The notes below the pieces were generated by a model, which saw nothing but the letters and a program-made list of their open reading frames with translations, was not told where the DNA came from and searched no databases. DNA of 64,000 nt, taken from the NCBI RefSeq assembly GCF_022669055.1, contig NZ_JAJMLW010000004.1:1-64000 (forward strand), given 5' to 3'. Made by a program: the position numbers and the translations under genes. Every line of letters starts with the position of its first letter. Position 1 is the stretch's first letter. This stretch comes from Adlercreutzia faecimuris. Lineage in GTDB: Bacteria > Actinomycetota > Coriobacteriia > Coriobacteriales > Eggerthellaceae. Below are positions 38,358-60,449 of the stretch, piece after piece.

Positions 38358-41300
38358 CTAGCGGAGGTTGCGGCGGGCGGCCTCCACCACCAGGCGGACG
38401 CGGTTCTCGCGGTTGAGGGCCGATGCCTCGGGGTCGTAGTCGAGCACGGTGATCTGCATATCGGGGTAGCGCCGCCCCAGGTCGTGCAGCGCGCCGCGGC
38501 TCCTCACGTGGCCCTTGAGGCAGCCGAAGGACTGAAGATAGATGACGTGGCGCACGCCGGCGGCGGCGAAGGCGTCCAGCTGGGGGAGGAAGCGCACGTC
38601 GTCGGAGAACAGCAGGGCGGGGTCGGGGAGCACCGGCTCGGCGTCGAGAGCGCCGAGCATCTCGACCAGCCTGTCGTTCATGAAGGGGTCGAAGATGAGC
38701 AGCGGGTTGCCCACCAGCCCGATGCGCGGTCGGCTGGCGTCGTCGCCGGCGGGCGTGGGCGCGGGCACGTCGTCGGGCGCGGCGCCATCGGGCGCGCGCC
38801 AGGCGCGTTCCCAGGTGAAGGCGGGCGTGCGGCCCGTGGCGCGCTCGACCATGCGGGGCACGGCGTCCACCAGGCAGCGCTCGCAGACCGCCGGCAGTGT
38901 GATGGCGTCCAGGTCGGGGTCGGCCTCCAGCAGGCGGATGGCGCGCGCCGCCAGCGCGGTGGCCGTGAAGCACACGTCCTTGGCCGTGCAGCGTCGCGCC
39001 ACCTCCAGGTCGCCCTCGTCCAGCCCGCGTGCGAGCAGGAGCGCCTCGTGGTCGCCGGTCGCCGCAGCGTCACCGGCACACGCCGCGGCCGCCTCGCCAG
39101 CATCGGGCGCGCCCGGCGCGTCGCCCGCGGCACACGCCGCGCCCTCCGCATCGCCGACGCCCGTCGGCGCCTCGCCCGCAGCGCCCGCGTCGCCCGTCAC
39201 CGCGCCGCCGCTCGCCGCGCCCCGGCGCTTGCGCACGGCGATGGTCTCGGCGAGGGTGCGCAGGCGGATACGGAGGTGGGCGGTGTCCACCATCTCGTCC
39301 ACCTTGAGCGCCGTGAAGGGCGCGCCGGCCGCCGTGACGAGGTCGCGCACCTCCTCCAGGCTCACGGCGTCGAAGCCGCAGCCGAACGACTGGAGGCACA
39401 CCAGGTCGACCTGGGGGTGGGCCAGCGCGAAGCGCGCGCTCCTCACCAGGCGCTTTGCCGGCTTCCACGGCTGGGCGCCGGGGGCGTGGCCGTCCACCGC
39501 GCGCAGGCGCGCGCCCAGGCCGAGGGGGTTGAGCACGGCGAGCCCCATCTTCTGCAGCATGACGTCCACGTCGTGGGCCAGCGCGGCGTCGTTGTGGTAG
39601 GGGCGCCCCGCCACCAGCACGGCGTGGCGCCGCGGGTCGGCTTCCACCCAGGCGAGCGCCGCCTCGCCGGCGCGCTCCATCGTGTGCTCGAAGTCGGCCT
39701 GGGCGGCCAGCGCCGCGTCGAGCGCCGCCTCCAGCTCGCCCTCGGCCAGCGGCGCCCCGGCGGCGGTCGCCAGGGGGTCGAGGCAGGCGGCGAGCGCGGC
39801 GCGATCCTCGGGGCTGGCGGCGATGGCGCGCGGCTTGCTGCGGCTGAGCGTCGGCGCGATCAGCGGCGGGCGGCCCCCGCGGGCGCCCATCCCGGCGCCG
39901 TCGGCCAGCGCATCGGCGTACTCGCAGGTCACGGGGCAGTGGTAGCTCCGGTCGTAGCGTGCCATGAGCACGGCGTCGCAGTCCTTGCCCAGAAGCGAGA
40001 ACAGGCGGCTGTGCGACAGCTTGGCGGGGAAGCACACGCTCTCGGAGGGCACCGTCTCACAGGCGGCTCGCGATCCGCCCTGGTCGGAGCCGTGATCGGG
40101 CACGCGCACGCTGAACCCGAGGGCGCGGATGAGCCCATGCCAGAAGGGCAGCGCCTCGTAGGATTCCAGGGTGTCCATGATCCCGATGGTCATCCGGGCG
40201 CGCGGGCCCAGGCCCTCCTCGTCGCCGAGGCGCCCGACGAGCGCCTGCTCGAGCGCCATCAGGTTGGGGGCGCTCTCGCGCCCGCCATCGGCCGGCCCCG
40301 CGTCGCCCGCGCCCTCCGCCGCGGCGCGCCGCCGCAGCTCGTCGGCGCCGCGGTCGCACTTGTTGCCGCTCACGAAGGCGCGGTCCTCGCCGAACTCCAC
40401 CACGTCGAGCGAGCAGGCGTTGGCGCAGCCGGTGCAGGTGAGCGCCCGGTGCGCCGGCTTGAGCGCCGCCAGCTCGTCGCGCCCGATGAGCGTGCTCCGC
40501 CTCCTCGCCCGCGCGCCGTCGTCCGCGCCCTCGCCGGAGGCGGGGCCCGCACCTGCCCGGCCGTCGCCCTCCGCCTCCCAGCGGTCGCGCGCCACGAGCG
40601 CCGCGCCGATGGCGCCCATCAGGTGCGCCCGGTCGCAGCGCACGGCCTCGACGCCGCAGATCAGCTCGAAGGCGCGCAGCACGGCGTCGGACTTGAACGC
40701 GCCGCCCTGCACCACCACGCGGTCGCCCAGCGACGCAGCGCGCTCGCTGCCGATGATGCGGAACAGCGCGTTCTGCACCACCGAGTAGGCCACGCCGGCG
40801 GCGATGTCGTCGAGCGAGGCGCCCACCTTCTGGGCGTGCTTCACCCGCGACGACATGAACACGGTGCAGCGCATTCCCAGGTCGACGGGATGGTCGGCCC
40901 GCAGCGCGGCGGCCGCGAACTCCGAGGGGGTCGACCGCAGGCTGTGGGCGGTGCCCTCGATGAACGCGCCGCAGCCGCTCGAGCAGGCCTCGTTGAGCAC
41001 GGCGTCAGCCACCGCGCCCTGCTCGACCCACAGCGCCTTCATGTCCTGGCCGCCGATGTCGAGCACGAACGACACGTCGGGCACGAGCTCCTGGGCGCCG
41101 CGCAGGTGCGCCGCCGTCTCCACCACCCCCGAGTCGATGCCGAGTGCCGCGCGCAGCAGGTCCTCGCCGTAGCCGGTGGCGGTGGCGTGTGCGATCCACG
41201 GCGCCTCCTCGCCCCGCGGGGCTGACCGCGGCAGCGATGCGAGCGCGCCCAGGACCATCTGGCGCACGGTGTCCAGCACGTCGCCGCGCGTGGGCTCGTA

Positions 41301-42380
41301 GGCGTTGTAGACCAGGCGCCCGTCGGCATCCACCAGGGCGACCTTCGCCGTCGTCGACCCGGCGTCGACGCCCAGGAACAGCGGCCCACGCGCGTCGAAG
41401 GAGCGGAGGGAGGGGAAGACGGCCCGGGCGTGCCGCTCGCGGAAGGCGGCCAGCTCCTCCGGGTCGGCGAACAGGGCGGGCAGGCGTCCCAGCTCCTCCT
41501 CGGCGTCGATGAGCTCGCCGGCGCCCGCGCGCTCGCACAGCTCGTCGAGCGACGCGGTGACGGCCTCCTCCTCGGACAGCAGCGCGGCGCCCAGGGCGGT
41601 GAACAGGTGCGCGTCGCGGGGCAGGATGCCCGTCGCGGGGGTGAGCCCGAGCGCGCGGCGGAAGCGGTGCGCCAGGTCGGGCACGTACTCGAAGGGCCCG
41701 CCCAGAAACACGAGCGTCCCGCGCAGGGGCCGTCCGCAGGCCAGCCCGCCCAGGGTCTGGCGCACCACGGCGTCCAGCGCGCTCGCGGCGATGTCGGCCT
41801 TCGCGGCGCCGGCGTTGAGTAGCGGCCGCACGTCGGTCTGGGCGAACACGGCGCAGCGCGACGCGATGGGGTAGAGCCGCGACGCGCCCATGGACAGCCG
41901 GCTCATGGCGCCGGTGCGCACGCCCAGCATGAAGGCAATGGTGTCGATGAAGCCGCCCGTGCCGCCGGCGCAGGTGGCGTTCATGCGCTGCTCCAGGCCG
42001 CCGGTCAGGTAGATGACCTTCGCGTCCTCGCCGCCCAGCTCCACCACGGCGTCGGCGTCGGGGTAGGCGCCGCGCACGGCCCGGGTGGTGGCCACGACCT
42101 CCTGGACGAAGGGGACGCCGAGCACCTCGGCGGCGCTGATGCCGGCCGACCCGGTGATGGCGACGGTGCCCTCCAGGTTGCCGTGGCGCCAGGACAGGTC
42201 GTGCAGCACCGTCTGGAGCGTCTTGCGGATGTTGGACTGATGGCGCTGGTAGGCGGAGTGGAGGATGGTGCCGTCCTCCTCGGCGATGACGACCTTGATG
42301 GTCTTCGACCCCGCATCGATGCCGATGCGCAGGGTCGGCCGGGACGCGCCGAGGGGCGCCCCGCAGTCGGTCTCGTGCAT
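38358..42380 (-). CDS. Giant BadF/HgdC-type 2-hydroxyacyl-CoA dehydratase activase with DUF2229 and HgdB-like parts
   Basis: A 1340-residue multidomain protein. Two ASKHA ATPase domains lie in tandem: residues ~15-290 (RIGIDAGSKTIKVVIAEEDG, VELGGEDAKVI, CAGGTGGFIDT) and ~335-610 (LGVDAGSTTAKVALVDADG, LDIGGQDMKALW, CSSGCGAFIEG). Then come a Cys-rich DUF2229 region (LTCTGCANACSLDVVEF, SGNKCDRGADE) and a C-terminal half resembling the dehydratase HgdB fold. Such proteins use ATP to push electrons to very low potential for dehydratases or related enzymes. No separate HgdA/B genes are adjacent, so its partner is unknown. An Ala/Gly-rich insertion lies around residues 1065-1115. Cytoplasmic. Confidence 0.9.
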   Translation of the reverse strand: MHETDCGAPLGASRPTLRIGIDAGSKTIKVVIAEEDGTILHSAYQRHQSNIRKTLQTVLHDLSWRHGNLEGTVAITGSAGISAAEVLGVPFVQEVVATTRAVRGAYPDADAVVELGGEDAKVIYLTGGLEQRMNATCAGGTGGFIDTIAFMLGVRTGAMSRLSMGASRLYPIASRCAVFAQTDVRPLLNAGAAKADIAASALDAVVRQTLGGLACGRPLRGTLVFLGGPFEYVPDLAHRFRRALGLTPATGILPRDAHLFTALGAALLSEEEAVTASLDELCERAGAGELIDAEEELGRLPALFADPEELAAFRERHARAVFPSLRSFDARGPLFLGVDAGSTTAKVALVDADGRLVYNAYEPTRGDVLDTVRQMVLGALASLPRSAPRGEEAPWIAHATATGYGEDLLRAALGIDSGVVETAAHLRGAQELVPDVSFVLDIGGQDMKALWVEQGAVADAVLNEACSSGCGAFIEGTAHSLRSTPSEFAAAALRADHPVDLGMRCTVFMSSRVKHAQKVGASLDDIAAGVAYSVVQNALFRIIGSERAASLGDRVVVQGGAFKSDAVLRAFELICGVEAVRCDRAHLMGAIGAALVARDRWEAEGDGRAGAGPASGEGADDGARARRRSTLIGRDELAALKPAHRALTCTGCANACSLDVVEFGEDRAFVSGNKCDRGADELRRRAAAEGAGDAGPADGGRESAPNLMALEQALVGRLGDEEGLGPRARMTIGIMDTLESYEALPFWHGLIRALGFSVRVPDHGSDQGGSRAACETVPSESVCFPAKLSHSRLFSLLGKDCDAVLMARYDRSYHCPVTCEYADALADGAGMGARGGRPPLIAPTLSRSKPRAIAASPEDRAALAACLDPLATAAGAPLAEGELEAALDAALAAQADFEHTMERAGEAALAWVEADPRRHAVLVAGRPYHNDAALAHDVDVMLQKMGLAVLNPLGLGARLRAVDGHAPGAQPWKPAKRLVRSARFALAHPQVDLVCLQSFGCGFDAVSLEEVRDLVTAAGAPFTALKVDEMVDTAHLRIRLRTLAETIAVRKRRGAASGGAVTGDAGAAGEAPTGVGDAEGAACAAGDAPGAPDAGEAAAACAGDAAATGDHEALLLARGLDEGDLEVARRCTAKDVCFTATALAARAIRLLEADPDLDAITLPAVCERCLVDAVPRMVERATGRTPAFTWERAWRAPDGAAPDDVPAPTPAGDDASRPRIGLVGNPLLIFDPFMNDRLVEMLGALDAEPVLPDPALLFSDDVRFLPQLDAFAAAGVRHVIYLQSFGCLKGHVRSRGALHDLGRRYPDMQITVLDYDPEASALNRENRVRLVVEAARRNLR

Positions 42381-42583: not shown

Positions 42584-44221
42584 CTAGCGCCGCCGAGCCT
42601 CGAGGGGCGCCGGCACCTCGCGCTCCTCCACCATGGTCAGCAGCTCCTGCTGGGTGTGGATGTCCAGCTTGCGGTAGATGTGGTTGATGTGCGTCTTGGC
42701 GGTGCTCTTCGATATGCACAGCTTGTCCTGGATGAACGCCGCGTTGTGGCCCTTGGCCAGCAGGAACATCACCTCGGTCTCGCGCCGCGACAGCAGGTAG
42801 CGGTCGGCTATCTCCTCGCAGCGGCCGTGGAAGCGGCCCTTCGCGGCCCGCTCCTCGGCCTCGGCCCCGGCCGTCTCGTCGGCGTCGGGGGCGCCTTGCC
42901 CGCCGGTCTCCGCGGCCTCGGCTCGTGCGGCCGCCTGCTCCTCCTGGCGGTTCACCGCGGCCTTGAGCGACGTCCAGCCCGGGCTCTCGCCGCGCCGCGG
43001 GTCGATGATGGCCTGGATCTCACGCTGGCGGGGCAGCAGCGAGTAGCCGACCAGCAGCAGGAGCATCAGCAGCAGCGCCTCGGTGGGGGATCCGGGGGTC
43101 GCGCCGATCCCGGCCAGGATGCCCTCGGTGATGGTGGCGCCGGCGAAGGCGCCGATGGCCAGCAGGCCGCGGCCCAGCCCGAACACGAAGATGGGCGACA
43201 GCCGCAGCTCCTGGGACATGTCCGAGAAGAAGATCCACATCAGCGACTCGAGGCAGATGTAGCCCACCAGCACCATGAAGCACGCCGGCAGCTCGGCGGG
43301 GCCCGACAGCAGCGGCAGGCAGAACAGGGCCGCCGCGGCGAAGGGCACCAGGCAGCGGAACAGCATGTCCCAGTGCGAGTCGCCCTTGGTCACCGCCGCC
43401 ACCACCAAGACGACGGCCGCGCCCACGCAGGCCCCCGCGCCGATGGCCAGCTGGCCCGTGAGGTCGCCGGTCTGGAGGAACCCGGTCACCACGCAGACGC
43501 GCAGCGCCCCCAGCGACACCCCGAAGATGAGCGAGGGCAGCCCGAAGCGCGCCACGAAGGAGGCGCGGCGGATGGGCAGCGGGTGGAAGATGGGGATCTC
43601 CTGGCGCCGGTAGTAGGGGATGGGCGTCAGCTTCCACAGCAGCAGCGACGCCAGCACCGGCAGCAGCGCGGCCATGAGGGCCGACACCGGCACGATGACC
43701 CAGTTGACGAGGCACAGGTAGAGGGCGATGCCCAGCACCACGGCCACGACGGTGTTCAGGATGATGGTGGTGAACTCGTAGCGGGCGAAGGCCGTGCCCC
43801 ACATGGCCACCATGAGGCTGCCCCCCGCGCCCATGCACGCGCCCGACGCCACGGCCGCCGCGGCTGCCGTCGGGGAACCGGATCCCGCGGCGAACAGGCC
43901 CAGCGTTCCCGCCGAGGCCAGGATCGACGCCAGGGCCAGCGCCTTCTTCCCCACGTAGAACCGCAGAAACAGCTGGTTGGTGAAGGCGAGCAGCAGCAGG
44001 GCCAGGGCGAAGCTCACGCAGAACGCGTCAAAGACGAGCGTCGCCACCCCGCCGTCGTCGCCCACGCCGGGGAACACCGCCACGCCTCCGAACACCGCGG
44101 CGTACAGCCATCCCTGGAACATCCCGAACCCGACGCAGAGCGTGTTCAGGTCGCCCGAGGCGTCGGACTCGTTCCTTCCATGGGCGACGCTGATGGTGAT
44201 GTGCGGGAAGTTGGAGGGCAT
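42584..44221 (-). CDS. Membrane-bound LuxR-family regulator
   Basis: A 545-residue protein with an N-terminal region of about 12 membrane segments (residues ~30-405), a charged linker and a C-terminal LuxR helix-turn-helix at ~480-535 (YLLSRRETEVMFLLAKGHNA, ISKSTAKTHINHIYRKLDI). This layout is greatly expanded in Eggerthellaceae and usually sits next to the oxidoreductase operon it controls. It diverges from the zinc-ribbon/molybdoenzyme genes with 389 bases between starts, so it probably senses a ligand at the membrane and activates that operon. GGAGC precedes ATG 44221. Confidence 0.92.
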   Translation of the reverse strand: MPSNFPHITISVAHGRNESDASGDLNTLCVGFGMFQGWLYAAVFGGVAVFPGVGDDGGVATLVFDAFCVSFALALLLLAFTNQLFLRFYVGKKALALASILASAGTLGLFAAGSGSPTAAAAAVASGACMGAGGSLMVAMWGTAFARYEFTTIILNTVVAVVLGIALYLCLVNWVIVPVSALMAALLPVLASLLLWKLTPIPYYRRQEIPIFHPLPIRRASFVARFGLPSLIFGVSLGALRVCVVTGFLQTGDLTGQLAIGAGACVGAAVVLVVAAVTKGDSHWDMLFRCLVPFAAAALFCLPLLSGPAELPACFMVLVGYICLESLMWIFFSDMSQELRLSPIFVFGLGRGLLAIGAFAGATITEGILAGIGATPGSPTEALLLMLLLLVGYSLLPRQREIQAIIDPRRGESPGWTSLKAAVNRQEEQAAARAEAAETGGQGAPDADETAGAEAEERAAKGRFHGRCEEIADRYLLSRRETEVMFLLAKGHNAAFIQDKLCISKSTAKTHINHIYRKLDIHTQQELLTMVEEREVPAPLEARRR

Positions 44222-44610: not shown

Positions 44611-44862
44611 ATGTGCTTTAGACCTGCTGACGCCTCTGCGGGCTCGGGCGTGAACCAGTGCCCCGAGTGCGGCAAGACCATCCAGGCCATGGGCGGCATC
44701 ACGCTCAAGTCCTGCCCGTTCTGCAAGTGCGACTTCACCCCCTACCTCGACGGCACCAAGCCGCTGCCCAACGCGGCCCCCGGCGCGCCCGCGGCTCCCG
44801 CGGCCCCCGGCGCCCCGAAGGCCCCCGGCGCCCCGAAGCCGCCGGCGGCCCCCGGCCAGTAG
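44611..44862 (+). CDS. Small zinc-ribbon protein with Pro/Ala/Gly tail (MCFRPAD family, copy 2)
   Basis: An 83-residue paralogue of the protein at 27026-27304. MCFRPADAS is followed by CPECGKTIQAMGG and CPFCKCDFTPYL (two Cys pairs, one zinc site expected) and a Pro/Ala/Gly tail of ~33 residues. AAAGGAGG before ATG 44611 gives a strong start. It is the first gene after the LuxR-divergent promoter and precedes the molybdoenzyme large subunit by 156 bases. Two copies, each beside a different molybdoenzyme, suggest an accessory role such as assembly, metal handling or scaffolding; this is inference. Confidence 0.85.
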   Translation: MCFRPADASAGSGVNQCPECGKTIQAMGGITLKSCPFCKCDFTPYLDGTKPLPNAAPGAPAAPAAPGAPKAPGAPKPPAAPGQ

Positions 44863-45018: not shown

Positions 45019-47331
45019 ATGGCATACGGTAAACAGTGGCAAACCGTAATGGAGGACGGCACCGTCGTCACTCGCTCCAACACCTGGTCGCCTCCGGGAT
45101 CCCACCCCGTGGGGTACGGCGTCAAGGTCGTGACCAAGGACGGCGAGCTGATCCGCATCGAGGGCGATGACGACAACCCGATCACCACCGGTCGCGTGAA
45201 CGCCATGAACCTCGCCCTGCGCGAGTACACCTACGCCCCCGAGCGCATCATCTACCCGATGAAGCGCGCCTACGAGGACCGTGGCAAGGACAAGTGGGTC
45301 CGCACCACCTGGGACGAGGCCATGGACACCATCTGCGAGAAGGTGCGCTACTTCCAGGAGACCTACGGCCCCGAGTCCATCGTCTGCTTCGGCGGCACCG
45401 GCCGCGAGGCGTGCATCTTCTACTACGCCCTGACGTTCTCGGTGCTGCAGTCCCCCAACTGCTGCTACACGCAGTCCGGCTGGTCCTGCTACGGCCCCCG
45501 CTGCTCCATCTCCGACTACGTGCTGGGCGCGGGCTACCCCGAGCTCGACTACGCCGGCCACCTGCCGGGCAGCTACGACGACCCCCGCTACACCCTGTCC
45601 AAGTGGGTCGTGGTCTGGGGCAAGGAGCCCCTGCCCTCCAACGGCGACGGCTTCTTCGGCCACTGCCTCGTCGACATGATGAAGCGCGGCACCAAGATCA
45701 TCTCCATCGACCCCCGCATCACCTGGGTCGGCGCCCATAACGGCAACATCAACCTGCAGGTCCGCCCGCAGACCGACACCGCCCTGGCCCTCGGCATCAT
45801 GAACCTGATGTTCGAGACCGGCGAGTACGACCACGAGTTCGCCGAGAACTGGATCTACGGCCTCGACGAGATCAAGGCCCGCGCCGCCGAGTACCCGGTG
45901 GAGAAGGTCTCCGAGATCACCACCGTCCCGGTCGAGGACATCAAGCGCGTCGCGCACATCATCGGCACCGAGCGCCCGATCGGCTGGGCCTGGGGCCTGG
46001 CCTTCGACCAGAACAAGAACGGCGTGCAGCTGTCCCAGGCGTTCATCGTGCTGGCGGCCCTGGCCGGCTCGATCGACCGTCCCGGCGGCCTGACCCTCGG
46101 CCCGCCGTCCGCCCTGCTGGGCAAGTGGCGCATGGAGCAGCGCGGCGCCATGGACGACGAGGTGTGGTCCAAGCGCATCGGCGCCGCGGCGTGGCCGGGC
46201 CTGTCCACCGGCATGGCCACCACCCAGCCCGACGAGACCCTCAACACCATGGAGACCGACGAGCCCTACGCCCTGAAGATGGGCTGGTTCAACAGCTCCA
46301 ACTTCCTGACCCCCACCTGCTCGGCCCAGCCCAAGCGCTGGCACAAGGCCCTGCAGAAGCTGGAGTTCGTCGTGGTGCAGGACATCACCATGACCCCGAC
46401 CGCCATGGCCGTCGGCGACTACTTCCTGCCCATGGCCACCTGGGCCGAGCATGACGGCATCGTGCTCACCCACTACGGCCGCAACACCGTGTTCATGGGC
46501 CCCATGAACAAGGCCCTCACCGTCGGCGAGTGCAAGTCCGACGTGGAGATCTGCCTCATGTTCGGCCAGCGCCTGAACCCCAGCTGGTGGCCGTGGTACA
46601 AGCCGGCCGACGGCAAGTCCCTCGACCTCGAGGCCCTGCAGACCGCCGTGGAGGACTTCTACAGCGACCAGCTCAAGGAGCTCGGCTTCGACTGGAAGGG
46701 CTTCCAGGAGCTCGGCCTGTACCAGCCCGGCGCCCACGGCTTCGAGTACGAGAAGTACGAGAAGGGCCTGCTGCGCTTCGACGGCCAGCCCGGCTTCAAC
46801 ACCATCACCGGCCAGATCGAGGCCTACTCGATCCTCTACGAATCCTGGGGCGAGGATCCGCTGCCCTACTACGAGGAGCCGAACTACAGCCCGATCAGCA
46901 AGCCCGACTTCGCCGGCCAGTACCCGCTCATCACCACGTCCGGCTCGCGCCGCTACAGCTCCTTCCACTCCGAGCATCGCCAGGTGCCCTCGCTGCGCCA
47001 GATCGATCCGTGGCCGTGGGTGCAGATCAACCCCGAGACCGCCAAGGAGTACGGCATCACCGACGGCGACTGGGTCGAGGTCTACAACATGTTCGGCGAG
47101 GCTCGTTTCAAGGCGGAGATCACCCCGGTCATGAAGCCCGGCATCCTGAACTGCGCCCATGGCTGGTGGTTCCCCGAGCAGGACGGCGAGGAGCCCAACC
47201 TGTTCGGCGTCTGGAAGTCGAACTTCAACAGCCTCGTGCCGCACTTCAACGTTGGCAAGCTCGGCTTCGGCGCGCCGTATAAGGGCGTCATGTGCAACGT
47301 CCGTCGTGTCCGCAGCCTCGACCAGGACTAA
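45019..47331 (+). CDS. Molybdopterin (bis-MGD) enzyme large subunit lacking the FS0 Fe-S cysteines
   Basis: A 770-residue member of the DMSO reductase family. The usual N-terminal [4Fe-4S] region is recognisable (TWSPPGSHPVGYGVKVVTKDG, then GRVNAMNLALREYTYAPERI) but its cysteines are replaced, for example by S28, Y33 and N61; no Cys occurs before C106. Candidate metal-ligand cysteines C148, C149, C157 and C162 lie in SPNCCYTQSGWSCYGPRC. Cofactor motifs IISIDPRITWVGAHNGNI and the C-terminal DPWPWVQINPETAKEYGITDGD are intact. No Tat signal, so cytoplasmic. Loss of the cluster suggests chemistry without electron transfer, as in acetylene hydratase or transhydroxylase relatives, or a direct redox partner. 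AAGGAAAG precedes ATG 45019. Confidence 0.88.
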   Translation: MAYGKQWQTVMEDGTVVTRSNTWSPPGSHPVGYGVKVVTKDGELIRIEGDDDNPITTGRVNAMNLALREYTYAPERIIYPMKRAYEDRGKDKWVRTTWDEAMDTICEKVRYFQETYGPESIVCFGGTGREACIFYYALTFSVLQSPNCCYTQSGWSCYGPRCSISDYVLGAGYPELDYAGHLPGSYDDPRYTLSKWVVVWGKEPLPSNGDGFFGHCLVDMMKRGTKIISIDPRITWVGAHNGNINLQVRPQTDTALALGIMNLMFETGEYDHEFAENWIYGLDEIKARAAEYPVEKVSEITTVPVEDIKRVAHIIGTERPIGWAWGLAFDQNKNGVQLSQAFIVLAALAGSIDRPGGLTLGPPSALLGKWRMEQRGAMDDEVWSKRIGAAAWPGLSTGMATTQPDETLNTMETDEPYALKMGWFNSSNFLTPTCSAQPKRWHKALQKLEFVVVQDITMTPTAMAVGDYFLPMATWAEHDGIVLTHYGRNTVFMGPMNKALTVGECKSDVEICLMFGQRLNPSWWPWYKPADGKSLDLEALQTAVEDFYSDQLKELGFDWKGFQELGLYQPGAHGFEYEKYEKGLLRFDGQPGFNTITGQIEAYSILYESWGEDPLPYYEEPNYSPISKPDFAGQYPLITTSGSRRYSSFHSEHRQVPSLRQIDPWPWVQINPETAKEYGITDGDWVEVYNMFGEARFKAEITPVMKPGILNCAHGWWFPEQDGEEPNLFGVWKSNFNSLVPHFNVGKLGFGAPYKGVMCNVRRVRSLDQD

Positions 47332-47351: not shown

Positions 47352-47711
47352 ATGGCAGATCAGAAATACGCTTTGCTCGTTGACTACACCTACTTCTCCG
47401 GCAACCATGCCGCCGAGATCGCCTGCAAGGAGGAGCTCGGCCTGCCGATCGACCAGTTCGGCATCAAGGAGGTCGAGGTCGGCCCGTTCAAGAAGGGCGA
47501 GGGCAACGACGGCGACGCCTGGGAGTGGTTCTACATCCCCTGCCCGACGTCCATCTTCTCCGACCACTGGGGCACGGGCGGCGACAAGGCCGGCCAGCGT
47601 CCCCTGGCGGTCCAGGTCGAGGAGTCCGCGTCCATGTACTACGGCACCCTTGAGGAGATGCAGGCCAAGATGGCGGAGTTCGACCGCCCGATGGTCCTGT
47701 TCCAGCTGTAG
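47352..47711 (+). CDS. Degenerate ferredoxin-type small subunit that has lost its cluster cysteines
   Basis: A 119-residue protein 20 bases after the large subunit gene. Its N-terminus YALLVDYTYFSGNHAAEIAC aligns without gaps to YGFFFDMNRCYACQACSIAC of the Fe-S subunit at 24643-25386: C13, C16 and C19 there are F15, N18 and A21 here; only C25 remains. Later AGQRPLAVQVEESASMYYGT aligns with EGQQPLCTLSCPLRAFDFGP, with A86 and E90 in place of two more cysteines. The middle part holding two clusters is shortened, with C64 the only other Cys. It probably still binds the large subunit as a structural partner. GAAAGG lies upstream. Confidence 0.85.
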   Translation: MADQKYALLVDYTYFSGNHAAEIACKEELGLPIDQFGIKEVEVGPFKKGEGNDGDAWEWFYIPCPTSIFSDHWGTGGDKAGQRPLAVQVEESASMYYGTLEEMQAKMAEFDRPMVLFQL

Positions 47712-47802: not shown

Positions 47803-48078
47803 ATGACCCGCGACGAATTCCTGGCCCTCGACGCCCCCGAGGCGGCCGAGGTCCTGAACAAGCTGGTGGCCGAGGGCAAGTCCAAGGACGAGGCCCTGGC
47901 CGAGGAGGGCATCACCCAGGCTGACCTCATGAAGGCGCAGATCTTCTGGGTGAAGGACAAGTTCATCGCCCGCGCCTGGGGCGGCTACACCTCCACCAAG
48001 CGCACCGGCAACGAAGCCGGCGACGACGAGAAGGGCGTCGGCGGCAGCGATCCTTCCAAGGGCTTCGCCGGCATCTAG
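47803..48078 (+). CDS. Small helical protein of unknown function, molybdoenzyme module 2
   Basis: A 91-residue soluble protein. Residues 1-50 are acidic and helical (MTRDEFLALDAPEAAEVLNK, EGKSKDEALAEEGIT) and look like a helix-turn-helix-sized bundle; then IFWVKDKFIARAWGGYTSTK and a disordered Gly/Asp-rich tail. No cysteines, membrane segment or signal. AAGGAGGGCACT before ATG 47803 is a strong ribosome site. Not recognised as a named family; conserved association with the enzyme would be the main clue. Confidence 0.75.
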   Translation: MTRDEFLALDAPEAAEVLNKLVAEGKSKDEALAEEGITQADLMKAQIFWVKDKFIARAWGGYTSTKRTGNEAGDDEKGVGGSDPSKGFAGI

Positions 48079-48255: not shown

Positions 48256-48582
48256 ATGGCGACGGAAGAGGAGATCAGGGCCGAGATCGAGAGGCTCGGG
48301 CGCCTGACCGAGGAGCAGGAGGACATCCTGTACAACATCTCGCTCAAGCAGGACGAGCTGGGCCGCCAGCCCACCAACCTGCTGCTGGAGCAGATCGAGG
48401 GCAGCGACGTCTACGGGCCCCTGATCGAACGGGAGTACCTTACCTACGAGGTGTTCAACCACGGCGGGCGGCACGAGATAGCGAGCCTGTACGTCACGCT
48501 GAAGGGGATGCGCTACTGCATTCTGTTCAGCGACGAGCTGTCGCCGCGCCGCAAGCTGAACCCCGCCGGCGCGCCCTGGTAG
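48256..48582 (+). CDS. Small protein of unknown function
   Basis: A 108-residue soluble protein. Residues 1-40 are a charged helix (ATEEEIRAEIERLGRLTEEQ) that could form a coiled coil; the rest is predicted beta-rich (YLTYEVFNHGGRHEIASLYV, MRYCILFSDELSP). Single Cys, no metal motif. GGAGG precedes ATG 48256. It lies behind the terminator of the molybdoenzyme module in the same orientation, so it may be independent. No family recognised. Confidence 0.75.
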   Translation: MATEEEIRAEIERLGRLTEEQEDILYNISLKQDELGRQPTNLLLEQIEGSDVYGPLIEREYLTYEVFNHGGRHEIASLYVTLKGMRYCILFSDELSPRRKLNPAGAPW

Positions 48583-50791: not shown

Positions 50792-51038
50792 GTGCGTCAT
50801 CGAGCCGTCGGGGCGTCGCTCTCGCGGGGCTCGCGCATCGCGGGGGCGGCGCTGATGGCGGTCGCCGCGCCGCGGGGGACGATGGTCCGCGGCCCTCCGA
50901 GCACGCGTCGCGGCGGCATTCGCCATGCGGGGACGATGGCGGCGTGACGCGGGGCAGCCGCATCTGCGCCGCCGTGTGAGCGCTCCCCAGTTATTGGGGG
51001 TGCCCACAATGGCCTCCGATCGAGAGGACGGAGGTTCT

Positions 51039-51704
51039 ATGAAGCGAAGTCGATCCCTCGCCGTGGGCGTTCTGTGCGCCCTGGGCTGCGCGGTGTGCGT
51101 GGGCGCGTTCCTCATGCAGGTGAGCGACCAGGCCGACGCCGCGCGAGCCGAGGCGCTCGCACGTTATGGCGGCGACCAGCTCGAGGTGTGCGTCGCGCGG
51201 CGGGACATCGCGGCGGGCGAGATCATCGACGAGGGCGCGGTCGACACGGGCCTGTGGGTGGCGGGGCTGCTGCCGGAGGGCGCCGTCACCGCGCGAGGGG
51301 AAATCATGGGCAAGCAGGCGTCGGCGCCCATCCTCAAGGGCGAGGCGATCACCACGCGGCGCATCGGCGCGCCCGCGGCCCAGTCGCTCGACATTCCTGA
51401 GGGGCTCGCGGCCGTGAGCGTTCCCGCGCGGGAGGTGCAGGCGGTGGGCGGCGCGCTCCAGCCGGGGATGCGGGCGGACGTGTACGCCACGGGCGCGAGC
51501 GCCACCGAGCTGCTCGTGCCGCGCGCGTTGATCGTGGCCACGAGCAGCGACGCGTCCGGGCCGCTCGCACCCGGCGCCGTCGCGTGGGTGACGCTGGCGG
51601 TGAGCCCGTCGGCCGTGCAGGAGCTGGTGGCGGCCGCCCAGAATCTCGAGCTCTACTTCGTCCTTCCCACGGGCGGAGGGGAAAGCGGCCGCACCGAGGC
51701 CTAG
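51039..51704 (+). CDS. cpaB: CpaB/RcpC-type Flp pilus assembly protein
   Basis: A 221-residue protein, first gene of the tad locus. A membrane segment at ~7-26 is followed by a SAF domain (LEVCVARRDIAAGEIIDEGA) and the RcpC/CpaB fold with VSVPAREVQAVGGALQPGMRADVY. In Gram-negative bacteria CpaB sits with the secretin; in Gram-positives it is thought to help assemble pili at the outer face of the membrane, perhaps by binding peptidoglycan. GGAGG precedes ATG 51039. Confidence 0.88.
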   Translation: MKRSRSLAVGVLCALGCAVCVGAFLMQVSDQADAARAEALARYGGDQLEVCVARRDIAAGEIIDEGAVDTGLWVAGLLPEGAVTARGEIMGKQASAPILKGEAITTRRIGAPAAQSLDIPEGLAAVSVPAREVQAVGGALQPGMRADVYATGASATELLVPRALIVATSSDASGPLAPGAVAWVTLAVSPSAVQELVAAAQNLELYFVLPTGGGESGRTEA

Positions 51705-51738
51705 GAGAGAGCCGGCGCTGCCGGCGGAAAGGATGGCC

Positions 51739-53451
51739 ATGGGCAACATACTATTCTGCGCTGACCGGGCGTCGCTGGCGAGTCCCGCGTCCCTGGGGTT
51801 GGCGGACGACCTGCTGCGGGAACGCGACTGGCTGGAGGGGCGCTCGGATGCCGTCGAGGCCCGGGCGCGGCTGGCCCAGCAGCCGCCCATCGAGGAGGCC
51901 TGGGTGGCGTCGAGCGACCAGATGGGAGCTGTGAACCTGGCGGCCGCCCTGCGGCGGGACGACGCGCGCATCCCCCTCTACCTGGTGGCGGAGGGCCTGA
52001 GCGGGTCGGAGGTCAGCCGCGCTCAGGCGGCCGGCGTCACGGGGCTGCTCACGCCGGATGGTCTGGCGCGTCGCGTCGCCCACGAGGATCGCCGCCGGCT
52101 GGCCTCGGCGGCGCGCGCGGCGGCCGTGCGGGCGGCCGAGGCGTCGGCGCGTCCGCTCGGAGCCGGGGATGACGCGCGGCTGCCGATAGTGTGCGCCCCG
52201 CGCCCGCCGCGAGACGACGGCGCGTGCGCCTGGGAATGCGACGGCGGCCCAGATGCGGAGGATCCGCTGCCGCCGCCGGCGCCCGCTGTGGAAGCGGGGC
52301 GGGCGGCTGCCGCGCCTGGCGCGCCCGGGGCGCCGTCGGGGGAGCGCGCCCCGGCGCTCTCGCTGTCGGCTGCCGACACGGCGCCGCTGCCGCCTGTGGC
52401 GTTGGCGCCCGCGTCGCCCGCCGCGTCAGCGTCCGCGCCTCGTGTGCCCGTGTCCACCGCGTCGGATCCCGCTGCCCCGGCGGCATCCCCGGCCCCCGCT
52501 CCACCGCCCGCGCCTGCCGCTCCCGCGGCACCGCCGCCGGCATCCGCTCCCGCCGCCGCCCGCCCTCCCGCGTACGTGCTGTCGGTGGTGAGCGGCAGCG
52601 GCGGCGCGGGCAAGAGCACCGTGGCCGTGCTGGCCGCCTGCCTGGCGGCGCGTCGCGGGCTGCGCACGCTGCTCGTCGACGCCGACCTCCAGTTCGGCGA
52701 CGCCGCCGACCTGCTGGGATCCTCCGGCGCCCCCACGGTGGACGAAGTTCTGGCCGATCCGGGCCTGCTCGATGCTCCGGCCGACGCCGGCGTGCCGGCC
52801 CTCGTGGCCGCACCGCACCGCCTCGAGTTGGCAGAGGCCCTGGCGGCCCAGCTCCCGCGCCTGCTGGAGGAGGCGTCGGCCCGCTTCGACGCGGTGGTGG
52901 TCAACACGGGCGCCAGCTGGTCGGAGGGCCACGCCCTCGTCATCGAGCGCAGCGCCCGCACGCTCTTCCTCGTCGACCAGCGCGCTTCGTCGGTGCGGGC
53001 CTGCCGCCACGCGCTCGAGCTGTGCGCGCGGTGCGGCATCGCCACGGGCTCGTTCCTGTTCCTGCTCAACCGCTGCGCCAAGGGCGTGCCGTTCACCTCA
53101 CTCGACGTGTCCTGCGCGCTGCAGGGCGCCCCGGTGAGGGAGCTGCGCGACGGCGGCCCGGCGGTGGAGGAGCTGCTCGGATCGGGGCTGGCCCAGACCC
53201 TGGCCTCCGAGCGCAACGAGCTGCGCGAGTCGCTGGGGGCCGTTCTCGACGACCTGCTCCCCGGGGGCTCGTCGGGTCGGGGCGCCGGCAGGGGCCGGAA
53301 GAGGGGGCGCGGGGCGTCCGAGGCGACTTCTGAGGCGCCCCCTGACGCCGGCCGCCCGCGTGGCCGGGACGCCGGGGGTCGCAAGGCGGGCCGGTGGGGC
53401 CGGCGCCGCGGCCGCCCCGCGGTGCTCGTGGAGGCGGGGGCCGCGCGATGA
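51739..53451 (+). CDS. cpaE: CpaE/TadZ-like MinD-family ATPase
   Basis: A 570-residue cytoplasmic protein. The N-terminal ~120 residues resemble a receiver-like domain; a Pro/Ala-rich linker extends to ~275. The MinD/ParA-type ATPase follows with a deviant Walker A VVSGSGGAGKSTVAVLA and LLVDADLQFGDAADLLG; the C-terminus is basic (SGRGAGRGRKRGRG). TadZ proteins place the pilus machine in the cell. ATG 51739 is preferred to 51733 because the site GGAAAGG ends at 51732. It overlaps cpaF by ATGA. Confidence 0.88.
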   Translation: MGNILFCADRASLASPASLGLADDLLRERDWLEGRSDAVEARARLAQQPPIEEAWVASSDQMGAVNLAAALRRDDARIPLYLVAEGLSGSEVSRAQAAGVTGLLTPDGLARRVAHEDRRRLASAARAAAVRAAEASARPLGAGDDARLPIVCAPRPPRDDGACAWECDGGPDAEDPLPPPAPAVEAGRAAAAPGAPGAPSGERAPALSLSAADTAPLPPVALAPASPAASASAPRVPVSTASDPAAPAASPAPAPPPAPAAPAAPPPASAPAAARPPAYVLSVVSGSGGAGKSTVAVLAACLAARRGLRTLLVDADLQFGDAADLLGSSGAPTVDEVLADPGLLDAPADAGVPALVAAPHRLELAEALAAQLPRLLEEASARFDAVVVNTGASWSEGHALVIERSARTLFLVDQRASSVRACRHALELCARCGIATGSFLFLLNRCAKGVPFTSLDVSCALQGAPVRELRDGGPAVEELLGSGLAQTLASERNELRESLGAVLDDLLPGGSSGRGAGRGRKRGRGASEATSEAPPDAGRPRGRDAGGRKAGRWGRRRGRPAVLVEAGAAR

Positions 53452-54776
53452 CGCTGCTCGAGCGCGCCCGCGCGGCCGAGGCGGCGCCCGTCCCCGGCCG
53501 CCCTGCCCGGACGGCGACGGTGGAGGACCTGCGCCGCAGCGTGCGCGAGCGCCTGGCCATGGAGAAGGTGGCCGCGATGATGGGGGACAACCCCGAGCGC
53601 GCCCGCAACGAGCTGCGCGCCGCGTGCCGCCAGGCGTTCGCCGAGGGCGGGTGGGACGCCGTGACCCCGGTGGAGCGCGAGCGGCTGGTGGCCGACCTGG
53701 TGGACGTGGTGTTCGGCATGGGCCCCATCGACGGGCTGCTGGAGGACGAGACCGTCACCGAGGTGATGGTCAACGGCACCAAGAGCATCTACTACGAGCG
53801 GGACGGCCGGCTCCACCGCAGCCCGGCGCGCTTCGCCAGCGACGAGCAGGTGCGCGTGCTCATCGACCGGATCATCGGCCCGCTGGGCCGGCGCATCGAC
53901 GAGGCGTCGCCGACAGTGAGCGCCCGGCTGCCCCAGGGGCACCGCGTCCACGCCATCATCCCGCCGCTCTCGCCGGACGGCCCGCTGCTGACCATCCGCC
54001 TCTTCTCGCGGCGCGTGATGACGCTCGAGGAGATGGTGGCCCGCGGATCGTTCGGCGACGACTTCCGGCAGCTGCTCGTATGGGCGGTCGTCGCGCGGAA
54101 GAACGTGGCGGTTTCGGGCGGCACGGGCAGCGGCAAGACGACGCTGCTCAACGCGCTGTCGTGCCACATCCCCGCGGGGGAGCGCGTCATCACCATCGAG
54201 GACTCGGCGGAGCTCAAGTTCGACGAGCACCCGCACGTGGTGCGGCTGGAGGCGCGGCCGAGCAACGCCGAGGGGCTCGGGGAGGTGACCATCCGCGAGC
54301 TCGTCATCAACGCGCTGCGCATGAGGCCCGACCGCATCATCGTCGGGGAGTGTCGCGGCGGCGAGGCGCTCGACATGCTCCAGGCCATGAACACGGGCCA
54401 CGAGGGATCGCTCACGACGCTGCACGCCAACGCCCCGCAGGAGGTGGTCGACCGGCTGGTCACCATGGTGCGCTATGCGGTCGACCTGCCGCTCGACGCC
54501 GTGGAGGCGCAAATCGGCGGCGCGTTCGACCTGATCGTCCAGACGGCGCGCGCCCGCGACGGGTCGCGCTTCGTGTCGGCGGCGGCCGAGGTGGTCTTCG
54601 ACGCGCAGCGGCGCGCATGCGTGCTCACGCCGCTCTACGAGCGCGGCCCGGGCGAGGAGCGGGGAAGGTGGCTCGCCGAGCCCGGATGGCTCGACGCGGC
54701 CGTGAGGTGGGGAATCATCGACGAGGAGGAGGTGGTCGCATGGAGGCGGCGACTCTCACGGCAGGCGGCGCGCTAG
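53448..54776 (+). CDS. cpaF: CpaF/TadA secretion ATPase
   Basis: A 442-residue hexameric ATPase that drives Flp pilus assembly. The N-terminal domain has VFGMGPIDGLLEDETVTEVM; the ATPase has Walker A SGGTGSGKTTLLNAL, the Asp box VITIEDSAELKF, Walker B RMRPDRIIVGECRGGEA and the His box GHEGSLTTLHANAP. It overlaps cpaE by 4 bases and tadB by 37. Cytoplasmic, docking on TadB/TadC. Confidence 0.95.
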   Translation: MTLLERARAAEAAPVPGRPARTATVEDLRRSVRERLAMEKVAAMMGDNPERARNELRAACRQAFAEGGWDAVTPVERERLVADLVDVVFGMGPIDGLLEDETVTEVMVNGTKSIYYERDGRLHRSPARFASDEQVRVLIDRIIGPLGRRIDEASPTVSARLPQGHRVHAIIPPLSPDGPLLTIRLFSRRVMTLEEMVARGSFGDDFRQLLVWAVVARKNVAVSGGTGSGKTTLLNALSCHIPAGERVITIEDSAELKFDEHPHVVRLEARPSNAEGLGEVTIRELVINALRMRPDRIIVGECRGGEALDMLQAMNTGHEGSLTTLHANAPQEVVDRLVTMVRYAVDLPLDAVEAQIGGAFDLIVQTARARDGSRFVSAAAEVVFDAQRRACVLTPLYERGPGEERGRWLAEPGWLDAAVRWGIIDEEEVVAWRRRLSRQAAR

Positions 54777-55711
54777 CGGGCGCGGCGGCGGCCGGGCTGG
54801 TGCTGGGCCAGTGGGGGTTCGAGGGGATCGTGCGGGCGCGCCGCGCCCAGGCCGTCGTGGGAGGCGATGGCCCGGGGGCCGCGCCGTGGCTCTTGCGCCA
54901 CGGCGCGCGGCCGCTGCTGCCGGCGGCGCGGCTGCTGCTGCGGGCATGCGGCGCGCACCAGATGGCCCGGGACGCCTGCGCCCTGCTGGCTGAGCGCGGC
55001 GCCGTGTCGTCGCCCGAGGCGGTCGCGAGCCTGCTCCTGCTCGCCTGCGCGGCCCTCGGCGCTACGGCGTGGCTCGCGTCGGGCACGCCGGTGTGCGCTG
55101 CGGCCGTGGCGGCCTGCGTCACCGTGGCCGCGGCGGGCGCCTTGCGAGCCGCCCAGGATCGGCGGCAGGAGGCCCTGCGGGCGGGGGTGCCCGACGCGCT
55201 CCGCTCGATGGGGGTGTGCTTCCGCGCCGGCCTCTCGCTGCCGCAGACCCTGCGGCAGACGGCCGACGAGGTAGGCGGCCCGCTCGGCGCCCTGTTCGCC
55301 CGCGCCGCCGCGCGGCTGGGGACGGGCTGCACGCCGGGGGAGGCCCTCGCCGTCTTCCGCGGCCAGGAGGGGCTGGCGGAGCTGGCCTTCGTGGCGGTGT
55401 CGCTCGACGTGCAGCACCAGAGCGGCGGCAGCCTGGCGTCGGTGCTCGACGCCGCGCGGGAGTCGGTGGAGGGCGAGCTGGAGCTGCGGCGCTCCCTGCG
55501 GGTGCAGACGGCCCAGGCGAAGCTCTCGGCGCGCATCGTGACGCTGATGCCCTTCCTGCTGGTGGCGTTGTTCTCCCTGGTGAGCGAGGGGTTCCTCGAG
55601 CCGTTCTTCGGCAGCCCCGTGGGGGTGGCGCTGCTCGGCGCGGCCCTTGCCATGCAGGCGGCGGGCGTCCTCGCCGTGCGCCACATGCTCGACGTGGGCG
55701 TGGGGCGATGA
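54740..55711 (+). CDS. tadB: TadB-like inner-membrane platform protein
   Basis: A 323-residue protein of the type II secretion F family. Two N-terminal membrane segments, a cytoplasmic F domain (GVPDALRSMGVCFRAGLSLPQTL, LAFVAVSLDVQHQSGGSLAS) and two C-terminal segments are visible. GAGGAGGAGG inside cpaF serves ATG 54740. It overlaps tadC by ATGA; together they form the membrane base of the pilus. Confidence 0.9.
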   Translation: MEAATLTAGGALAGAAAAGLVLGQWGFEGIVRARRAQAVVGGDGPGAAPWLLRHGARPLLPAARLLLRACGAHQMARDACALLAERGAVSSPEAVASLLLLACAALGATAWLASGTPVCAAAVAACVTVAAAGALRAAQDRRQEALRAGVPDALRSMGVCFRAGLSLPQTLRQTADEVGGPLGALFARAAARLGTGCTPGEALAVFRGQEGLAELAFVAVSLDVQHQSGGSLASVLDAARESVEGELELRRSLRVQTAQAKLSARIVTLMPFLLVALFSLVSEGFLEPFFGSPVGVALLGAALAMQAAGVLAVRHMLDVGVGR

Positions 55712-56658
55712 CGGCGGCCGGGGCGCCGGCCGCCTGGGCCGCGGCGGCGTGCGCGTTCGCGGCTCTGCTGGGGCTGTGGGGCTGGGATGCGGCGCGGCGC
55801 TGGCAGCGGAGGCGCTGCCACCGGCGGGCCCTGGGCGGCGCGGAGGCGACGGCCGCCGCGGGATCGACGGCCGCATCGGGCGGCTCGGCGGACGACCGGG
55901 TCGTGGCCTACCTGACGGCGTTGACCCGCCGGCTCGAGGGGGCGGCGCCCCACCGCTGGGCGCCCCCGCCGCTGGGCCGGCCGGCCTGGTTCGGGGATCA
56001 CCTGGCGCGCGCCGGGCTGGGGGACGCCGTGTCGGTCGCGGCCTGCGGCGAGGCGCGGGTGCGCCTGGCGGCGGCCGGCGCGGCCCTGGGCGGCGCGCTC
56101 GGGATGGCGGCCTCGCCCGAGGCGGCCCTGCTGCTGGCGGGCGCCGGCGGCGCGCTCGGATGGCGCGCCCCGCGCTGGGCCGTGGCGCGCCGCAGCCGGC
56201 GCCGGGCCGAGGAGATGGAGCGCCACCTCTCCGAGATGCTGGACGTGGTGGCCCTGGGGCTGCGCAGCGGCCTGTCCTTCGACCGGAGCCTGGCGCTGTA
56301 CGGCGAGCACTTCGACACGCTGCTGGCGGCGTCGCTGACCGGCGCGCGGCGGCAGTGGGAGTGCGGCCTGGCCACGCGCGAGGAGGCGCTGCGGCGCGTG
56401 GCGGCGTCCTACGACTCGCCGCCGTTCACGCGCGTGGTGGAAAACGTCGTGCGGTCGCTGCGCTTCGGCGCGTCGATGGCCGACAGCCTGGAGGACGCGG
56501 CGCGCGAGGCGCGGGCGGCCTACCGGGCGCGCCTGCAGGAGCAGGTGGCGAAGGCGCCGGTGAAGATGATGGTGCCCACGGCGACGCTCATCCTGCCGGC
56601 GATGCTGATGCTGGTGCTGGGCCCGGTGATGCTGGAGCTCATCGGGGGTTTCTCATGA
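55708..56658 (+). CDS. tadC: TadC-like inner-membrane platform protein
   Basis: A 316-residue protein with the same F-domain layout: membrane segments near residues 8-25 and 110-145, cytoplasmic SEMLDVVALGLRSGLSFDRSL and YRARLQEQVAKAPVKMMVPT, and a final pair of membrane segments. It directly follows tadB by a 4-base overlap, the usual tadB-tadC order. Confidence 0.9.
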   Translation: MTAAGAPAAWAAAACAFAALLGLWGWDAARRWQRRRCHRRALGGAEATAAAGSTAASGGSADDRVVAYLTALTRRLEGAAPHRWAPPPLGRPAWFGDHLARAGLGDAVSVAACGEARVRLAAAGAALGGALGMAASPEAALLLAGAGGALGWRAPRWAVARRSRRRAEEMERHLSEMLDVVALGLRSGLSFDRSLALYGEHFDTLLAASLTGARRQWECGLATREEALRRVAASYDSPPFTRVVENVVRSLRFGASMADSLEDAAREARAAYRARLQEQVAKAPVKMMVPTATLILPAMLMLVLGPVMLELIGGFS

Positions 56659-56673
56659 GAGAGGAGAGAAGTC

Positions 56674-56922
56674 ATGGTCAAGGACACGCTGGAGAAGGGG
56701 TGGGCACGCGCGAGGGCGGCCTGGGATCGCGCGGGGCTCACGGCGGCCGCGCTGCCGGGGCGCGTGCGGGCGAAGCTGGCCTGCGAGGCGGGCCAGGGGA
56801 CGACGGAGTACGCCATCCTCGTCGGCATCCTGGTGGTCATCGCCATCCTGGCCATCACGCTGTTCCGCCCCAAGCTCCAGGAGCTGTGGGACGCCATCGC
56901 GACGGGCATCAACGGCTTGTAG
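56674..56922 (+). CDS. flp: Flp-type pilin
   Basis: An 82-residue prepilin. A long basic leader of ~39 residues ends before GQGTTEYAILVGILVVIAIL, with the conserved Glu-Tyr at +5/+6 after the expected Gly-type cleavage point and a hydrophobic helix. Mature pilin would be about 42 residues, usual for Flp. GAGAGGAG lies before ATG 56674. The cleaving peptidase TadV is not encoded in this window. Confidence 0.9.
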   Translation: MVKDTLEKGWARARAAWDRAGLTAAALPGRVRAKLACEAGQGTTEYAILVGILVVIAILAITLFRPKLQELWDAIATGINGL

Positions 56923-57119
56923 GGCTCGCGGCCGACGAGGCGGGCCAGGCCACGGTGGAATACGCCGTGGTGGCCGGGGCGCTCGTGGCCATCGTGCTCG
57001 CCTGCGCGCTGCTCGCCCGTGCGTTGGGGGACGGGATGTTCGTCGACCACGCCCTGGCGGCGGCCTCGCATCACGTGCGGGCGGCCGCGGGCTGGGCGGC
57101 GGACGTGTTCTGCTACTGA
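56886..57119 (+). CDS. Second Flp-like pilin, start uncertain
   Basis: An open frame with AGQATVEYAVVAGALVAIVL, the same cleavage pattern and hydrophobic helix as Flp, ending HVRAAAGWAADVFCY. No ATG is available; GTG 56886, inside flp, is the nearest start with AGGAG (56879-56883) ahead, giving 77 residues. Overlap starts of this kind also occur at tadB. It could be a minor pilin of the same fibre. Confidence 0.65.
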   Translation: MGRHRDGHQRLVGLAADEAGQATVEYAVVAGALVAIVLACALLARALGDGMFVDHALAAASHHVRAAAGWAADVFCY

Positions 57120-57137
57120 GGAAGGAGGGGAGGAAGA

Positions 57138-59961: not shown

Positions 59962-60449
59962 GGGGGCCTGCGGGCGCCGCGCGCGGGCGTGGGTGCCTGC
60001 GCGGGAGCAGGCGGCTTGCGGGCGCGCTCCGCGACGAGGGCGGCCAGATGACCATCGAGCTGCTGGTGGTGCTGCCCGTGATCCTGATCGTGGCGGTCAT
60101 CGCGGTGAACGCGCTCACGTTCTTCGGGGACTGCGCGGCCTTCGACCGCGTGGCGCGCAACGCGGTGAGGATCTGCGCGGCCTCACCGGGCTACGGCCAG
60201 GACGTGGGGCAGAGCGCCGCACAGGTCGAGACGATGGTGGGGGAGGCCCTGGCCCGCGACAACCTGGAGGTGTCGGCGGAGGCCTCCGGCGGCGCGCTCG
60301 GCCAGGTCACCTTCACGGTGCGGCTGTCCTACGCGCCGACGCTGTTCGGGCTGGGGCTGCGCGACGAGGTGCTGGGCGTGGCGCTCCCGCGCCTGGAGCA
60401 CCGGGTGGCGCTGACGGTGGATCCCTACAAGCCGGGGATGCTGTTCTGA
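59952..60449 (+). CDS. TadE/TadG-like pseudopilin
   Basis: A 165-residue protein. A basic leader of ~30 residues is followed by DEGGQMTIELLVVLPVILIV, the TadE-type helix, then a short outer domain with one Cys pair region (GDCAAFDRV, RICAASPG). ATG 59952 overlaps the preceding stop by 10 bases. Together with the gene at 57138 it gives two pseudopilins besides the Flp pilins. Confidence 0.82.
   Translation: MAVRGPAGAARGRGCLRGSRRLAGALRDEGGQMTIELLVVLPVILIVAVIAVNALTFFGDCAAFDRVARNAVRICAASPGYGQDVGQSAAQVETMVGEALARDNLEVSAEASGGALGQVTFTVRLSYAPTLFGLGLRDEVLGVALPRLEHRVALTVDPYKPGMLF

Follow-up and report, generated by a model that had tools for sequence, protein, structure and literature searches.

Within the window, that is, the entire 64,000-nucleotide stretch of Adlercreutzia faecimuris DNA analysed (contig NZ_JAJMLW010000004.1, positions 1 to 64,000), a gene for a molybdopterin oxidoreductase (hcdhA) is followed after an interval of 20 bases by a short complete open reading frame (ORF), hcdhB. 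The relevant genes are as follows.

42584 to 44221, minus strand: LuxR-type (GerE) regulator with a membrane part recognised by eye (Pfam GerE 1.4e-11, residues 477-530); a related gene at 8 of 40 named loci.
44611 to 44862, plus strand: small protein with a CxxC..CxxC pattern, resembling a zinc ribbon by eye, ahead of hcdhA; no family above cut-off; at 17 of 40 loci.
45019 to 47331, plus strand: hcdhA, catalytic bis-MGD subunit of 770 amino acids, acetylene-hydratase-like; ATG at 45019.
47352 to 47711, plus strand: hcdhB, 119-residue accessory (B) subunit of ferredoxin type, predicted to be cluster-free; ATG to TAG.
47803 to 48078, plus strand: orf91, small conserved gene with no Cys and no known family; at 39 of 40 loci and in all 23 genomes with hcdhB.
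48256 to 48582, plus strand: orf132, 108 residues from this start, winged-helix-like in its model and a probable regulator; at 37 of 40 loci and in all 23 genomes with hcdhB.

The hcdhB ORF is a genuine and intact gene subject to strong purifying selection, with a median dN/dS of 0.086 (434 of 435 pairs from 30 full-length orthologues) and an uninterrupted frame at 39 of the 40 named loci, the remaining locus being cut by a contig end. Homologues of the protein were recorded in 61 of 100 related genomes, and hcdhB itself in 23 of them (22 covering 97% or more of the full length and one cut at a contig end), close orthologues occurring in Gordonibacter, Paraeggerthella hongkongensis RC2/2 A, Raoultibacter, Ellagibacter isourolithinifaciens DSM 104140, Adlercreutzia and others. 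The A. faecimuris genome contains 21 copies of the HcdhB family at E ≤ 0.01 (25 matches at E ≤ 10, the last four weak). Translations from the same genome yielded 20 paralogous B subunits, mostly of about 110-120 residues, which carry a CxxCxxCxxxC motif close to the N-terminus and CDxC..PxCVxHC further along; five of the paralogues are encoded on the minus strand, and three larger, four-motif subunits of the DmsB type are also present. A second, diverged hcdhAB copy was encountered at one locus (L131, G042:C2:363711-368070), its A and B products being respectively 78% and 89% identical to those of the window; the matches to orf91 and orf132 there each contain a TGA stop, and this copy is possibly a decaying duplicate.

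Gene order is well maintained: at 38 of 40 named loci hcdhA precedes hcdhB, two loci start at hcdhB itself, and hcdhA-hcdhB-orf91-orf132 forms a conserved cluster. The two downstream genes extend somewhat further than hcdhB, to 29 (orf91) and 25 (orf132) of the 100 genomes, including all 23 that carry it, and orf91 homologues also adjoin the B genes of L129, L135 and L136, sister enzymes without the FS0 cluster site of the catalytic subunit. An AlphaFold2 (AF2) model of the orf132 product (pLDDT 88.7) gave Foldseek matches mostly to MarR/PadR-type proteins, none with E under 0.001. Neither orf91 nor orf132 was retained as an electron donor, no family above cut-off and no cofactor motif by eye being found for either, and orf132 being winged-helix-like; the zinc-ribbon-like ORF was likewise rejected as a rubredoxin-like donor, having no family above cut-off and a place at only 17 of 40 loci. 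No donor gene was found in the conserved four-gene cluster. Elsewhere in the window, a 1340-residue BadF/DUF2229 CoA-enzyme activase-type protein (2-hydroxyacyl-CoA dehydratase activase family; 38358-42380, minus strand) lies beside the dehydroxylase regulator, and 50925-60000 (plus strand) resembles, by eye, a Tad/Flp pilus gene set (CpaB/CpaE/CpaF/TadBC-like ORFs, with a small pilin at 56674-56922).

Ligand positions were compared in a MAFFT alignment of 96 B sequences from this and related genomes, consisting of 55 paralogues and 41 clade members (the window, 39 of the 40 named loci, the partial L067 being left out, and L131); of the 60 regions fetched, L148-L151 were omitted as clade members already among the named loci. 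All eight ligand columns, which make up two [4Fe-4S] motifs, are Cys in every one of the 55 paralogues. Seven of the eight have been lost in all 41 clade members as opposed to none of the paralogues, a difference far beyond chance. The relevant sites are as follows.

47394 to 47426, plus strand: remnant of motif I, residues 15-25 (FSGNHAAEIAC), CxxCxxCxxxC having become F/Y15, N18, A21 and C25.
47424 to 47426, plus strand: C25 codon, the sole inherited cluster ligand remaining; Cys in every clade member (41 of 41) and every paralogue (55 of 55).
47541 to 47543, plus strand: C64 codon, not an inherited ligand; Cys in 34 of 41 clade members and 0 of 55 paralogues.
47556 to 47621, plus strand: remnant of motif II, residues 69-90, CxxC..PxCxxxC having become F69, G74 (by MAFFT; H72 by CxxC spacing), A86 and E90.

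Residues N18, A21 and C25 of motif I, together with F69, G74 and A86 of motif II, were present throughout the clade, while position 15 was Phe in 37 members and Tyr in four, and position 90 Glu in 37 and Asp in four. The two motifs have changed alike, the first Cys being replaced by Phe (or Tyr) and the third by Ala, such that the pockets are filled in symmetrically. Forty-seven residues are invariant across the clade, including S16-I23 and C25-E28. Thirty further B loci from four named genomes, partly the same genomes as those in the 96-sequence alignment, gave an equivalent result: 26 displayed the eight-Cys pattern, and the other four were HcdhB orthologues. Searches at E ≤ 1e-28 for the cluster-free B subunit in 296 genomes drawn evenly across the phylum located it in only two, A. 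faecimuris and one member of its family. The retention of a single ligand Cys out of eight in all 41 members would make HcdhB a member of the B family by descent and not an Fe-S protein, and on this alignment we regard it as almost certain that the subunit carries no cluster.

A prior sequence-only reading had proposed that a ferredoxin-type subunit had here been turned into a cluster-free structural protein, with four or more ligand cysteines replaced, the middle cluster-binding segment shortened, and C25 and C64 surviving as a possible pair. The central proposal is well supported by the alignment, by profile comparison and by the best matches of the predicted fold, all of them Fe-S subunits of Mo/W enzymes, and the loss of ligands exceeds that claimed; that HcdhB is a structural protein is something we infer. 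The suggested check on C25 found it invariant. The short middle segment proved to be no peculiarity of HcdhB, shortness being common to the whole B family, relative to which HcdhB has two extra residues at motif II. Nor is C64 a surviving ligand: its column is V, M, L, T, I or A in all 55 paralogues, and since it occupies a non-ligand position and is missing from seven of the 41 clade members, the envisaged C25-C64 pair, whether binding a single metal or forming a disulphide across the dimer, finds no support and was rejected.

The same reading had held that HcdhB shares its scaffold with the window's own Fe-S subunit, a claim that stood at the level of profiles but not of single sequences. 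Profile-profile comparison (hhalign) of the clade with 19 eight-Cys paralogues from the same genome gave a probability of 99.9 (E 1.2e-31), and with four four-cluster DmsB-type subunits, including that of the window, 82.8 (E 9.4e-6). Plain pairwise BLASTP of HcdhB against the window's own subunit, however, returned no significant match (E 0.22), the link requiring the two-cluster paralogues as a bridge. HcdhB alone matched none of the Pfam families, and phmmer found nothing among PDB sequences; the DmsB model TIGR02951 aligned residues 6-59 in register at 15.1 bits, below its cut-off of 214.1, and an intact B paralogue scored 29.9 bits against Fer4_11, above the cut-off of 26.2. A profile search of the PDB recovered PsrB alone, at E 1.6 and in the right register. 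An AF2 model of HcdhB built from 38 orthologues only was of middling confidence (pLDDT 65, pTM 0.57), and Foldseek gave it no match under E 0.001, with a ferredoxin first appearing at rank 30. In VIA-align, the eight top rows were all Fe-S subunits of Mo/W enzymes with Z from 5.6, a value not decisive alone, down to 3.0: 6sdr_B (Z 5.6 over 105 residues, 3.5 Å), 2vpw_B (5.5) and 1h0h_B (5.0), then 8c0z_C, 9mqx_G and three BamBC chains, the leaders being W-formate dehydrogenase beta and PsrB. A ferredoxin-type fold is accordingly a prediction that is supported but not proved.

The catalytic subunit HcdhA, for which acetylene hydratase (2e7z, E 6.9e-72) is the nearest relative of known structure, displays changes of its own at FS0, and two sites are relevant.

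45100 to 45210, plus strand: FS0 remnant, residues 28-64, PGCH..GC....LCxRC having become S28, Y33, N61 and N64.
45487 to 45489, plus strand: Cys157 codon, expected metal ligand; Cys in all 77 rows that have a residue there.

Over 79 aligned A rows, the four FS0 positions read CCCC in 44, DCCC in four, EWNG, EWNM or EWSF in four and SYNN in 25, with two partial rows (L141 and L152) that were excluded from the tree and from the counts of FS0 and switch positions. SYNN was common to 25 of 25 HcdhA sequences, and the set of rows bearing it is exactly the cluster-free clade; outside it, 48 of 52 full rows have CCCC or DCCC at FS0 and four have lost the site. Of 13 positions in A that switch between the clade and the rest, six (S28, Y33, V60, N61, M63 and N64) lie within the two FS0 loops. 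HcdhA scored 15.2 bits against the Pfam domain Molybdop_Fe4S4 (PF04879), below the cut-off of 22.7, and the intact paralogue L110, the one paralogous catalytic subunit so scored, 42.9 bits. The Cys of an intact paralogue at the Cys157 position aligns with a Cys of acetylene hydratase, and we take this position in HcdhA to be a metal ligand.

A review describes Gordonibacter catalytic subunits as being without an Fe-S motif; contrary to that description, among the 52 full A rows outside the clade, 44 have all four Cys at FS0 and a further four have three. The paralogue motif is atypical (e.g., L110:587-2989), the first canonical Cys being missing and an extra one following the fourth (LCxRC), a peculiarity that may explain the review's statement. 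In the catalytic subunits L118, L102, L111 and L154 the first FS0 Cys is replaced by Asp, possibly giving an Asp-ligated cluster.

As judged from these alignments, both subunits of the HcdhAB clade have lost cluster ligands, at FS0 in A and in both motifs in B. A tree of 63 A rows (quick LG+G4 search, FS0 columns left out, some long branches flagged) placed the cluster-free clade on one branch with SH-aLRT 100, and the changes counted on it amounted to one loss of the B clusters and three of FS0. L118, the L129/L135/L136 group and the HcdhA clade arise from one fork whose branching order the tree leaves open, such that FS0 loss may be shared or parallel there. The EW rows L128, L129, L135 and L136 have lost FS0 while all eight Cys are kept in their B subunits, and FS0 can therefore go while the B clusters stay; no case of B-cluster loss without FS0 loss was found among the aligned A/B rows. 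With FS0 lost in A and the clusters lost in B, the enzyme should be Mo-only, with no electron wire to Mo, and it is very likely on these grounds that HcdhAB as a whole lacks Fe-S clusters.

HcdhB belongs, as accessory (B) subunit, to a soluble Mo-bis-MGD catechol dehydroxylase of the Gordonibacter type, and very probably corresponds to Unk-9B of the Gordonibacter pamelaeae hydrocaffeic acid dehydroxylase Gp Hcdh, with hydrocaffeic acid as the presumed substrate. The hosts given for Unk-9, later named Gp Hcdh, in the available text of PMC11585353 fit those of the HcdhB orthologues, and the 770 residues reported there for the catalytic subunit equal the length found both in the window and in G. 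pamelaeae 7-10-1-b. P. hongkongensis RC2/2 A has three B genes, of which only the hcdhB orthologue is close in G. pamelaeae (96%), Raoultibacter (97%) and E. isourolithinifaciens (92%), the best Ellagibacter matches of the other two being 64% and 56%. The same text places a LuxR-type regulator gene beside unk-9 (PMC11585353), and the window likewise has a LuxR-type neighbour; the 12-kb locus of G. pamelaeae, some stretches of it masked, showed no such gene. Native purification of Gp Hcdh, its dehydroxylation of the substrate in assays with methyl viologen/dithionite and a Mo content equimolar with protein are described in the portion available, as are its support of ATP production, the in vivo transcription of its A and B genes at levels above all others in G. 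pamelaeae, and its rank as the most transcribed catechol dehydroxylase in human gut data (PMC11585353). That portion terms Unk-9B an accessory subunit, gives no iron figure for the enzyme and does not state the loss of clusters or of FS0 (PMC11585353).

We favour, with some reserve, a reading in which HcdhB serves as a scaffold while Mo is reduced directly by a donor. According to this reading, HcdhB would descend from a two-cluster ferredoxin-type electron-transfer subunit and would no longer carry electrons; it would pack on the N-terminal part of HcdhA at the former FS0 site, closing off the pterin and keeping the enzyme assembled as a lid or scaffold and possibly offering a docking face, and the two electrons required per reductive dehydroxylation would reach Mo directly, from a soluble donor or via the substrate funnel. 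Electrons enter directly at Mo in those DMSO reductase relatives that have no clusters, the direct reduction of biotin sulfoxide reductase by NADPH being a precedent. The sequence of HcdhB, including its N-terminal loop and C25, has remained under purifying selection despite the loss of ligands. Against this reading, the ATP production that Gp Hcdh is reported to support points to a connection with respiration for which a bare Mo enzyme would not account.

Another possibility, which we consider unlikely, is that HcdhB still relays electrons by means of a different redox or structural cofactor (a single metal, flavin or haem) bound in the old pockets by C25, H19, E90/D90 and others. The invariance of C25, H19 and the motif SGNHAAEIxCKEE in all 41 members goes beyond the needs of filler, and residue 90 is acidic in all 41; however, H19 also occurs in 48 of the 55 cluster-bearing paralogues and is thus not a new ligand, the remaining replacements (F, A, N and G) are space-filling and not metal-binding residues, and no family match for another cofactor was obtained. 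That a cluster persists, held by C25 together with cysteines of HcdhA at the interface, appears very improbable: 12 HcdhA cysteines recur in 80% or more of clade sequences, some (C132, C162, C434 and C712) being rare outside the clade, but they are scattered and form no CxxC motif, and the FS0 site itself has been lost.

It is also rather improbable that HcdhB acts mainly in the assembly or maturation of HcdhA (cofactor insertion or folding) and is no lasting subunit. Its cluster-free state, and the fact that no other chaperone gene was recognised in the conserved cluster, would suit such a role, although all other B subunits, with their electron-carrier motifs, also adjoin a catalytic subunit, and the standing of the A and B genes as the two most transcribed in G. 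pamelaeae in vivo, as given in the available text of PMC11585353, fits a stoichiometric subunit. The loss of motifs kept by all paralogues might lastly point to a pseudogene or mis-called ORF, an explanation of negligible probability that is refuted by the intact frames, the low dN/dS and the 47 invariant residues already described. Among these explanations, the scaffold with direct reduction of Mo is retained as the preferred reading.

HcdhAB may also be set against better-known systems. Acetylene hydratase, the closest solved relative of HcdhA, shares with it a Cys where the metal ligand is expected; it contains a 4Fe-4S cluster and is not known to have a B subunit, whereas HcdhA has no FS0 site. 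DMSO reductases of the DorA/TorA/BisC type contain Mo-bis-MGD with a Ser ligand and are not known to have an Fe-S cluster or a ferredoxin-derived partner; HcdhAB likewise appears to be without an Fe-S site, but has kept its B subunit and has Cys157 instead of Ser. The DmsB/PsrB/FdhB-type Fe-S subunits (TIGR02951, Fer4_11) share common ancestry with HcdhB as judged by profile, and a similar fold is predicted for it; they carry four clusters in about 200 residues, whereas HcdhB lacks both a cluster site and a second dicluster segment. Homologous B subunits of about 110-120 residues, lying beside an acetylene-hydratase-like catalytic subunit, belong to further Gordonibacter-type catechol dehydroxylases such as Dodh and Eadh; by way of contrast, the 55 aligned paralogues keep eight of eight Cys and HcdhB one.

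In the available text of PMC7028382 and PMC11887054, Gordonibacter-type B subunits are described as electron-shuttling 4Fe-4S proteins. For HcdhB, judged by its sequence, that description cannot be right, and FS0 cannot stand in. The openly accessible articles searched yielded no statement of a cluster-free B subunit; the enzyme is known, and what is new, as not stated in that literature, is the cluster-free state of its B subunit together with the graded series of losses.

The observation that FS0 loss occurs without B-cluster loss, and never the reverse, suggests that the relay was dismantled piecemeal. We tentatively propose that a lineage of working and physiologically important reductive Mo enzymes may have taken its Fe-S relay apart in this manner, FS0 going before both B clusters were lost, once, with the emptied subunit becoming a scaffold or docking face and a soluble donor reducing Mo directly. 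It thereby becomes possible to test directly where the electrons come from in a gut reaction relevant to diet, the dehydroxylation of a plant-derived catechol, and the graded paralogue series within one genome family constitutes a natural experiment on the role of Fe-S relays in Mo enzymes.
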